The position numbers and the translations under genes were made by a program. A stretch of 64,000 nucleotides of DNA from NCBI GenBank assembly GCA_902570505.1, contig CACFYR010000001.1, forward strand, positions 1 through 64,000, in the 5' to 3' direction. This DNA comes from an uncultured Pelagibacteraceae bacterium (GTDB lineage Bacteria; Pseudomonadota; Alphaproteobacteria; Pelagibacterales; Pelagibacteraceae). Below are positions 25,145 through 45,130 of this stretch, one piece after another. Each line of letters opens with the position of its first letter. Position 1 is the stretch's first letter. A model generated the notes under the pieces. The model worked only from the letters and a program-made list of their open reading frames with translations. It had not been told where the DNA came from and ran no database searches.

Positions 25145-25232
25145 CAGCAGTTATCGCATCAGTGGGCGAATATCGCTGACTGATGTCGATCTCTTTGTAA
25201 CCAAAGACACCGCAAATTGCTGTTTTTTGCGG
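25145..25232 (-). ncRNA. Structured 5' leader of ffh
   Basis: On the minus strand three hairpins lie in series before the ffh ATG. Hairpin 1 is CCGCAAA/TTTGCGG (25210-25232). Hairpin 2 is TCTTTG-GTTA-CAAAGA (25192-25207). Hairpin 3 is a long one, CATCAGT paired with ACTGATG, extended outward by ATCG/CGAT around one bulged A and inward by GCGA-TAT-TCGC (25153-25190). The block is much richer in G and C than its surroundings. A candidate cis-regulatory RNA preceding the gene for the SRP protein component was reported from comparative genomics of P. ubique; I believe this is that element, possibly an autoregulatory site. Hairpin 3 ends about 17 bases before the ATG, so folding could affect ribosome access. 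Confidence 0.8.
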
Positions 25233-43945: not shown

Positions 43946-44637
43946 ATTCTATCTAATCCTTTATTTTTAATCTTTATCAGTTCTGTATTATATTTCATTA
44001 AAAATATTAAAATTGAAAAAAGTACAAATGCCGCAGTCATAATGAATAATGGCACCAACATTGAGCTATGTATAGAGGAACCTGAAAGAGTTATTGATGC
44101 TGGTTGATGTAACGTATTCCACCATTCTACGGAGAATTTAATTATAGGTAAATTTATAAGTCCTAGTATTGATATTAAAGACGTAACTTTATTAACGCTC
44201 GTTTTATTTTCAAGAATTCTCCAAGATAAAATATAAAGTATATAAAAAATACATAGTATAAGCATCGAAGTAATTCTCGCATCCCACGCCCACCAGGTTC
44301 CCCAAGTTGGACGCCCCCAAATTGATCCTGTTACTAAAGCAATTATATTAAATACCAAACCCGATGGAGCTAAACTTTTTGCAATTAATAAAAAATATTT
44401 ATTTTTAAATACTAAATTTCCCAAAGATAGAATAGCGATTAATGAAAAAATACCAACTGAAGTCCAAGCCGATGGAACATGCACATACATTATTCTAACG
44501 CTATCGCTTTGTTTATAATCCTCGGGTGATAATACAAGAGCTTCAATAACTCCAATTGAAAAAACTATTATAAATAGAATAAAAATATATTTTTGAGCTT
44601 TAAAACTCATTTTGCTTAATTTTATAAATGGTTGCAT
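43942..44637 (-). CDS. ccmC: Heme exporter/handling protein CcmC
   Basis: Six-helix membrane protein that presents heme to CcmE. Motifs are MYVHVPSAW (first heme His), GRPTWGTWWAWDARITSMLIL (WWD motif) and SVEWWNTLHQPASIT (second His). The ORF extends upstream to a TTG at 44646, but I prefer the ATG at 44637 (MQPFIKLSKMSF), giving 231 residues. ccmA and ccmB, the ABC exporter genes that usually precede ccmC, are absent here; a 172-base gap with a structured RNA candidate lies upstream instead. Confidence 0.95.
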   Translation of the reverse strand: MQPFIKLSKMSFKAQKYIFILFIIVFSIGVIEALVLSPEDYKQSDSVRIMYVHVPSAWTSVGIFSLIAILSLGNLVFKNKYFLLIAKSLAPSGLVFNIIALVTGSIWGRPTWGTWWAWDARITSMLILCIFYILYILSWRILENKTSVNKVTSLISILGLINLPIIKFSVEWWNTLHQPASITLSGSSIHSSMLVPLFIMTAAFVLFSILIFLMKYNTELIKIKNKGLDRI

Positions 44638-44660
44638 AAAAGACAACTATTTAATCATTA

Positions 44661-44757
44661 TGAAAATATTTTCTAGGGGAATTTCTGACCAAGAACACAG
44701 AGGGAGATAAATAAGGAAGAAGTTTGTGTCCTTGATCAGAATAATCTTAATATTTCA
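44661..44757 (-). ncRNA. Candidate structured small RNA between hspQ and ccmC
   Basis: Reading the minus strand, TTCTGATCAAGGACACA (44741-44725) can pair with TGTGTTCTTGGTCAGAA (44699-44683) to form an unbroken 17-bp helix with two G-U wobbles. On the plus strand the same two positions would be A-C mismatches, so the minus-strand RNA is the better folder. The 25-base loop is pyrimidine-rich (CUUCUUCCUUAUUUAUCUCC). An outer stem of 9 bp with one bulge (TGAAATATT with AATATTTTCA) closes the structure across asymmetric internal strands. The region has more G and C than other gaps here. It could be an sRNA or a ccmC leader; I recognise no known family. Confidence 0.6.
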
Positions 44758-44809
44758 AATAGATATGTCTAAGTTTTGAGTTAAATGTGTTTAAATATTG
44801 ACTGGGATA

Positions 44810-45130
44810 TTAATTAGACGGCTTAAAGTAGCTAGAACCTCTTTTGCCTGAAAATATTTCATTTATTAGAGGGTGTTTAATAGGTTCTTCTGAGTTATCC
44901 GCTAATAAATTTTGCTCGGATACATAAGCCTCGTAAGTAATTTCATCATTTTCAGCAAGCAGATGATAAAATGGTTGATCTTTTCTTGGTCTTACATTTT
45001 TAGGTATTGATTGATACCATTCCTCTGAATTATTAAATTCAAAATCCACATCATAAATGACACCCCTGAAATCAAAATGTCTGTGTTTTACAACGTCGCC
45101 TATTGAAAATTTTGCTTTTTGAACAGTCAC
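44810..45130 (-). CDS. hspQ: HspQ/YccV-like hemimethylated-DNA-binding domain protein
   Basis: A 106-residue soluble protein of the YccV family, starting at GTG. Family motifs are FSIGDVVKHRHFDFRGVIYDVD, the WYQSIP segment and PFYHLLAEN, followed by YVSEQNLL. In E. coli HspQ is a heat-shock protein and Lon specificity factor; the name hemimethylated DNA-binding comes from early work. It stands alone, between the RNA candidate and the divergent yciB. Confidence 0.93.
   Translation of the reverse strand: MTVQKAKFSIGDVVKHRHFDFRGVIYDVDFEFNNSEEWYQSIPKNVRPRKDQPFYHLLAENDEITYEAYVSEQNLLADNSEEPIKHPLINEIFSGKRGSSYFKPSN

Follow-up and report, generated by a model that had tools for sequence, protein, structure and literature searches.

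Strong support for a new structured RNA behind hspQ in the family Pelagibacteraceae, with a pyrimidine-rich loop that may pair with ribosome-binding sites

The window, i.e., the whole stretch of 64,000 nucleotides that was analyzed, carries on its minus strand the gene hspQ (YccV-like, PF08755; positions 44810..45130; Pfam E 5.7e-30), followed by ccmC (PF01578; 43942..44646, with a probable start at the ATG at 44637) and, after it, ccmE and ccmF. The gap between hspQ and ccmC contains, on the same strand, a hairpin at 44683..44741 that is composed of a 17-bp stem and a 25-nt loop and is delineated by its fold, by shuffling and by covariation. Elsewhere in the window, at 25148-25200 of the minus strand, lies an ffh motif (RF01793, 51.7 bits), a known Pelagibacter cis element that confirms the assignment of the window to Pelagibacter (SAR11).

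On the minus strand, the two arms of the stem are TTCTGATCAAGGACACA (44741-44725) and TGTGTTCTTGGTCAGAA (44699-44683), and they enclose the loop AACTTCTTCCTTATTTATCTCCCTC (44700..44724), which is free of G and rich in C and U. The end of the loop is occupied by a conserved core, AUCUCCCUC (44700..44708), the complement of GAGGGAGAU. Folding of the minus-strand RNA yields -31.9 kcal/mol (z -3.9), a value equalled by none of 200 shuffles, whereas the plus-strand fold has a z of -1.2 and an interrupted stem. When the 166-nt gap was subjected to 1000 dinucleotide shuffles, with G-U pairs allowed and loops of 12-50 nt, the longest uninterrupted stem was 16 bp, and 17 bp was never reached; the longest on the actual plus strand is 10 bp. 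The uninterrupted stem and 25-base loop put forward in a preliminary description of this DNA are therefore present as claimed. An outer stem closing a bubble, also described there, appears in the single-sequence fold, but when 30 homologous gaps are folded to a consensus, a 16-bp hairpin alone remains.

Conservation of the hairpin within the genus is extensive. All 30 recovered ccmC loci that have hspQ upstream possess it, and a covariance model built from 26 sequences matches 183 genomes. Four near-complete genomes of the genus without the hairpin also lack hspQ and ccmC, such that no part of the locus was recovered from those assemblies. For example, in strain HTCC1062 (G106), a member of the same genus, the hairpin lies upstream of ccmC on the minus strand at 289,543-289,617. 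Among named genomes, matches to the hairpin pattern fall overwhelmingly in the Pelagibacteraceae; weak covariance-model matches elsewhere in two genomes (G328 and G100) are distant from both hspQ and ccmC and were rejected. In the genus alignment, changes on both sides occur at 10 of the 17 stem pairs and 93.9% of cells are paired, and none of 500 shuffles equals it on any of five measures. The stem cells of 26 homologues include 58 G-U combinations and a single A-C, from which it follows that selection acts on the minus-strand RNA. The strand asymmetry first noted in the window's own copy is, then, a general property and not an accident of one sequence. The preliminary description had named homologous gaps devoid of conserved pairing as counter-evidence; the homologous gaps do keep both the pairing and the loop.

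The same arrangement extends across the family. DNA behind hspQ was surveyed in 14 sampled genera of Pelagibacteraceae, and the hairpin is found downstream of hspQ in every one of them. An uninterrupted stem of 12-17 bp follows hspQ in 53 of 55 family loci, the exceptions being one locus with an interrupted stem (L245) and one in which no stem was found (L229). Stem sequences have drifted yet still pair, as in GTCCAGTTTGAAG of g5, TACCTAACTGAG of g6 and the GCCTAATTAAG-type stems of many others. In an alignment of 29 cross-genus sequences, whose arms were cut to 12 bp and joined to the loop core, double changes affect 11 of 11 counted pairs; paired cells amount to 99.4%, against 15-52% in slid controls, a figure inflated by the picking of arms for pairing. 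That choice accounts neither for the double changes nor for the occurrence of the hairpin in every genus. Loops are mostly 17-37 nt long with 2.9% G (174 copies), and their core reads AUCUCCCUY, CUCCCU being present in 170 of the 174. Neither of the two places checked in the sister family f2, behind hspQ and at ccmC, has a hairpin; there, a gene for a septation protein directly follows hspQ, and ccmC follows ccmB. That the hairpin is a selected structure of the minus-strand RNA is close to certain, and the data strongly support a new structured RNA of the whole family. One locus (L246, of g12) has the 3' half of the hairpin and the downstream DNA in tandem duplicate behind hspQ, with two copies of CATCATCTCCCTC.

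Upstream of the hairpin, the minus strand contains a box, AAACACATTTAACTCAAAACTTAGACATA (44764..44792), recognized from a profile of family copies anchored on GACA, with the consensus AACAnnnTTnnnnCAAAnCTnnGACAnA. The box consists of CA-CA-CA at 11-bp steps and is located ~26 nt upstream of the hairpin family-wide. In the anchored copies, the consensus is followed by 9 nt and then by TAnnnT (T in 97% and A in 95% at its first two positions), such that a conserved TA stands 12 nt after GACA, and the stem usually begins 29-31 nt after GACA. The copy in the window is imperfect in this respect, its candidate -10 element (44744..44752) being either TATTAA (44752-44747), shifted by 2 nt from the family TAnnnT, or TAAGAT (44749-44744). 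A sigma-70 reading of the window as TAGACA-16-TAAGAT was rejected: the RNA would start inside the stem, and the family keeps the TA 12 nt after GACA. Activators of the PhoB/OmpR type bind boxes that end ~11 bp before the -10 and replace the -35. By its layout, the box together with the -10 looks like a regulated promoter, the box being a probable activator site, from which the RNA would start at the base of the hairpin. The 5' end is accordingly predicted within a few nt of 44741, with the hairpin forming the 5' end of the RNA. In HTCC1062, the box matrix recovers a single site of 36.9 bits, the next best reaching 15.0; the idea of the box as a marker of a regulon was rejected on this count.

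At the 3' end, a terminator scan of the window found none, as the preliminary description had noted for this gap, and the 174 copies share no conserved terminator after the stem. Just 3' of the stem, 65 of 123 copies in the genus, and 6 of 51 from outside it, have a T-rich stretch. Three fates are conceivable for the RNA: processing, an end at an unrecognised site, or read-through into the next gene. Past the stem by some 10 nt, CCCACCAGAAAAATTTTCATAATTT is kept in one subgroup (L009, L010, L014, L015 and L017) of the genus, while many others have TTTC(A/G)TA-TAAA at this distance; the stretch may be another conserved element of the RNA.

The function that we consider most likely, with our confidence evenly balanced, is that of a short, structured, trans-acting small RNA whose loop pairs with purine-rich ribosome-binding sites independently of Hfq. 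In the proposed mechanism, the promoter behind hspQ (11-bp-spaced box and -10) would launch an RNA from the hairpin foot, the long stem would keep the G-poor loop open, and the CUCCCU core would pair with GGGAG-type, purine-rich ribosome-binding sites of target mRNAs, such that translation is blocked without Hfq. In genomes with ccmC next in line, this RNA may double as the ccmC 5' leader via read-through. Hfq (PF17209) was found in none of ten SAR11 genomes, HTCC1062 included, in a search that does find it in E. coli and Caulobacter; since the stem is strong and the loop open and poor in G, the hairpin is suited to Hfq-independent pairing. Of the earlier proposals, the data support a minus-strand RNA that is functional and whose pyrimidine loop could pair with purine-rich sites; anti-Shine-Dalgarno action is plausible and unproven.

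Predicted pairing of the loop with translation-initiation regions yields a modest signal. Gene starts for this ranking came from a simple script and not from a gene finder, and 8000 N-masked bases of the HTCC1062 genome were excluded. The mean of the 20 best interactions of the HTCC1062 loop is -16.5, compared with -15.0 for the best shuffle, and the loop surpasses all 60 shuffled loops. Five ortholog pairs are shared by the top 40s of HTCC1062 and a g5 genome (G101), a number reached by 2 of 60 shuffles; the binding energies of the G101 loop itself fall inside the control range. Of 82 secreted proteins of HTCC1062 chosen without bias, five are among the top 20, a count reached by 1 of 80 shuffles, and by 8 of 80 when the shuffles preserve CUCC. 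An enrichment of substrate-binding proteins (p 4e-10) was withdrawn as circular, its set having been seeded from the top matches; the unbiased test is much weaker. The best single predicted sites belong to a sodium:solute symporter and to glutamine synthetase (AGAGGGAGAGAUAAUG), and others of the best to an NMT1-type and two OpuAC-type binding proteins, two DctP proteins and LivJ2. For proteorhodopsin, also among the best, a 9-nt site is predicted, AGAGGGAGU, at the ribosome-binding site; the proteorhodopsin leader, AGGGAGUUUUUUAUG, is identical in 16 genomes and was not recovered from the genome that holds the window (G000), an incomplete assembly of 906 kb. The 16S anti-Shine-Dalgarno sequence ranks largely different genes from those ranked by the loop. 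Glutamine synthetase (glnT), proteorhodopsin and the substrate-binding proteins are candidate targets, to be taken as leads only. When HTCC1062 was limited for sulfur, the ccmC transcript was raised 4.74-fold relative to control stationary phase, and transcripts stood at 0.19 for glnT, 0.22 for opuAC and 0.23 for livJ2 (PMC5069961). This is the direction that trans-repression would predict, although the contrast is correlative and growth state confounds it.

A search of Rfam 15 with the window and eight homologues, at gathering score and at permissive E values (up to 10), gave nothing at the locus beyond chance matches; the scan included 6S RNA, a possibility raised in the preliminary description, and the locus is not 6S. 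Several known small RNAs nevertheless invite comparison. AbcR1/2 and NfeR1 of rhizobia (alpha-r15, alpha-r14) present anti-Shine-Dalgarno motifs in exposed loops and have several transporter targets; they are multi-hairpin RNAs with a terminator. The SAR11 hairpin resembles them in the exposed motif and differs from them in having no Rfam match. A parallel is also offered by sX13 of Xanthomonas, whose C-rich loops act, independently of Hfq, to repress mRNAs that carry G-rich motifs close to the start; like Staphylococcus RNAIII and Helicobacter HPnc5490, it has stable stems that present a C-rich apical loop, the complement of G-rich start motifs (PMC3771888). Whereas sX13 has 115 nt, three stem-loops and 4C/5C loops, the SAR11 hairpin has a single long stem and a CUCCCU core. 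Of the features of the sX13-like RNAs, a functional class and not a homology family, the SAR11 hairpin has the stable stem with a conserved, unpaired C-rich loop and a host without Hfq; its pairing with G-rich motifs at the starts of repressed mRNAs is putative. We know of no sequence relation between sX13 and the SAR11 hairpin. The proposed mechanism resembles that of known C-rich-loop small RNAs, while the RNA family itself is new.

The alphaR8 small RNAs of Caulobacter (SisA-D) also contain a conserved, single-stranded C-rich core, UUUCCUCCCU, and SisA represses its targets through base-pairing (PMC12559287). In alphaR8, the core lies outside and downstream of a weak hairpin, and the RNAs are Hfq-dependent, end in a Rho-independent terminator and are typically encoded beside an FGase gene (PMC12559287). 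In contrast, the SAR11 core sits in the loop of a strong hairpin, beside hspQ, with no terminator and no Hfq. Membership in alphaR8 was rejected: of the 10-nt core UUUCCUCCCU only CUCCCU is shared, the terminator scan and the unconserved T-tract offer no Rho-independent terminator, and the neighbors are hspQ and either ccmC or a PagL-type gene rather than an FGase gene.

Earlier work on Pelagibacter has reported structured RNAs, namely the ffh, rpsB, rpsL, SAM-V, rhtB, pntA, bablM and SAR11_0636 elements (PMC2704228), which are likewise intergenic, conserved in structure and from the same organisms, but occupy other loci. That survey of HTCC1062 intergenic regions applied a GC cut-off of 26% (PMC2704228). 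The HTCC1062 hspQ-ccmC gap (182 nt) has 23.1% GC and is absent from the survey's table; this AT-rich gap lies below the cut-off. In the openly readable full texts that were searched, no RNA at hspQ or ccmC is described; an unnamed detection is possible in paywalled work, such as the first small-RNA study of marine metatranscriptomes.

The position of the hairpin relative to its neighbors bears on two other explanations. It could be a cis element, the 5' leader of whichever gene is downstream (mostly ccmC), that stabilizes the mRNA or binds a regulator via its loop. In most genera, the gap does continue straight to ccmC without a conserved terminator, and the published rise of the ccmC transcript (SAR11_0287; 4.74-fold in sulfur-limited HTCC1062 versus control stationary phase, PMC5069961) would be read from the hairpin's putative promoter. 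However, in g10, g12 and g14, ccmC is located elsewhere, and the hairpin, loop and box stay behind hspQ (12 loci with the hairpin region and without ccmC), upstream of a replacement gene that has a PagL domain in the one copy tested. Conversely, where ccmC is not behind hspQ, it has no hairpin, as at L188; in G328, ccmC is found behind ccmE and lacks a hairpin. The spacing between hairpin and ccmC also differs by tens of nt, and the intervening stretch is poorly conserved. A rule of "always upstream of ccmC" fails on these loci, and the ccmC leader suggested in the preliminary description cannot be the primary identity of the RNA; since the hairpin stays with hspQ in the absence of ccmC, the RNA is tied to the hspQ side or stands on its own. 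A cis leader is, on this evidence, unlikely. The constant position behind hspQ, and the T-rich stretch that follows the stem in about half of the genus copies, would suit a 3' end of the hspQ mRNA, be it a terminator, a processing hairpin or a stability hairpin. Such a role is improbable, as the T-tract is nearly gone outside the genus, the loop is too long and too conserved for a terminator, and a -10-like box intervenes between hspQ and the hairpin family-wide; as an intrinsic terminator of hspQ, the hairpin was rejected because the U-tract is not in all copies.

Two further explanations concern what might recognize the structure. If the loop were a protein-binding site, the RNA would titrate or deliver a protein that favors unpaired pyrimidines, for example a SAR11 cold-shock protein, and the long stem, the G-poor loop of C, U and A, and the nearly invariant short core fit this equally well. 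Against it, we know of no such protein-RNA pair for CUCCCU in SAR11, and HTCC1062 start regions are enriched in the loop's complement; a protein site is doubtful. A DNA-level inverted repeat, acting as a protein site or cruciform, has in its favor that regulator sites are often inverted repeats, but it is already contradicted by the 58-to-1 ratio of G-U to A-C, by a loop conserved on one strand, and by stems that change in sequence while the pairing stays, and is scarcely credible.

In the sea, SAR11 bacteria rank with the most abundant of all cells, and their genomes hold very few regulators of transcription. Gene control in SAR11 is an open question, to which the usual answer is riboswitches. 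A single-copy hairpin with a promoter-like box in 14 of 14 sampled genera would be a core regulatory RNA of SAR11, and the trans-acting small RNA proposed above would provide a natural test of C-rich-loop regulation without Hfq, with measurable candidate targets that include proteorhodopsin. A bolder, and unlikely, extension is that of a family-wide, Hfq-free master small RNA, in which one gene under its own single-copy activator box would use the C-rich loop to damp translation of abundant nutrient-uptake proteins, proteorhodopsin and glutamine synthetase in starvation. If true, the almost regulator-free SAR11 cells would gain one post-transcriptional switch.

Some features of SAR11 ribosome-binding sites are of note. 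Several transport and energy genes (L289:13133, L304:14302, L336:616 and other HTCC1062 starts) have AGAGGGAG- or GGGAG-type sites, not AGGAGG. Sixteen genomes share the proteorhodopsin leader stretch AGGGAGUUUUUUAUGAAAAAA without variation. In its loop, HTCC1062 has GACUCCCUC in place of the AUCUCCCUC of most of the genus, a change that lengthens the pairing of the loop with the strain's own proteorhodopsin leader (AGAGGGAGU).
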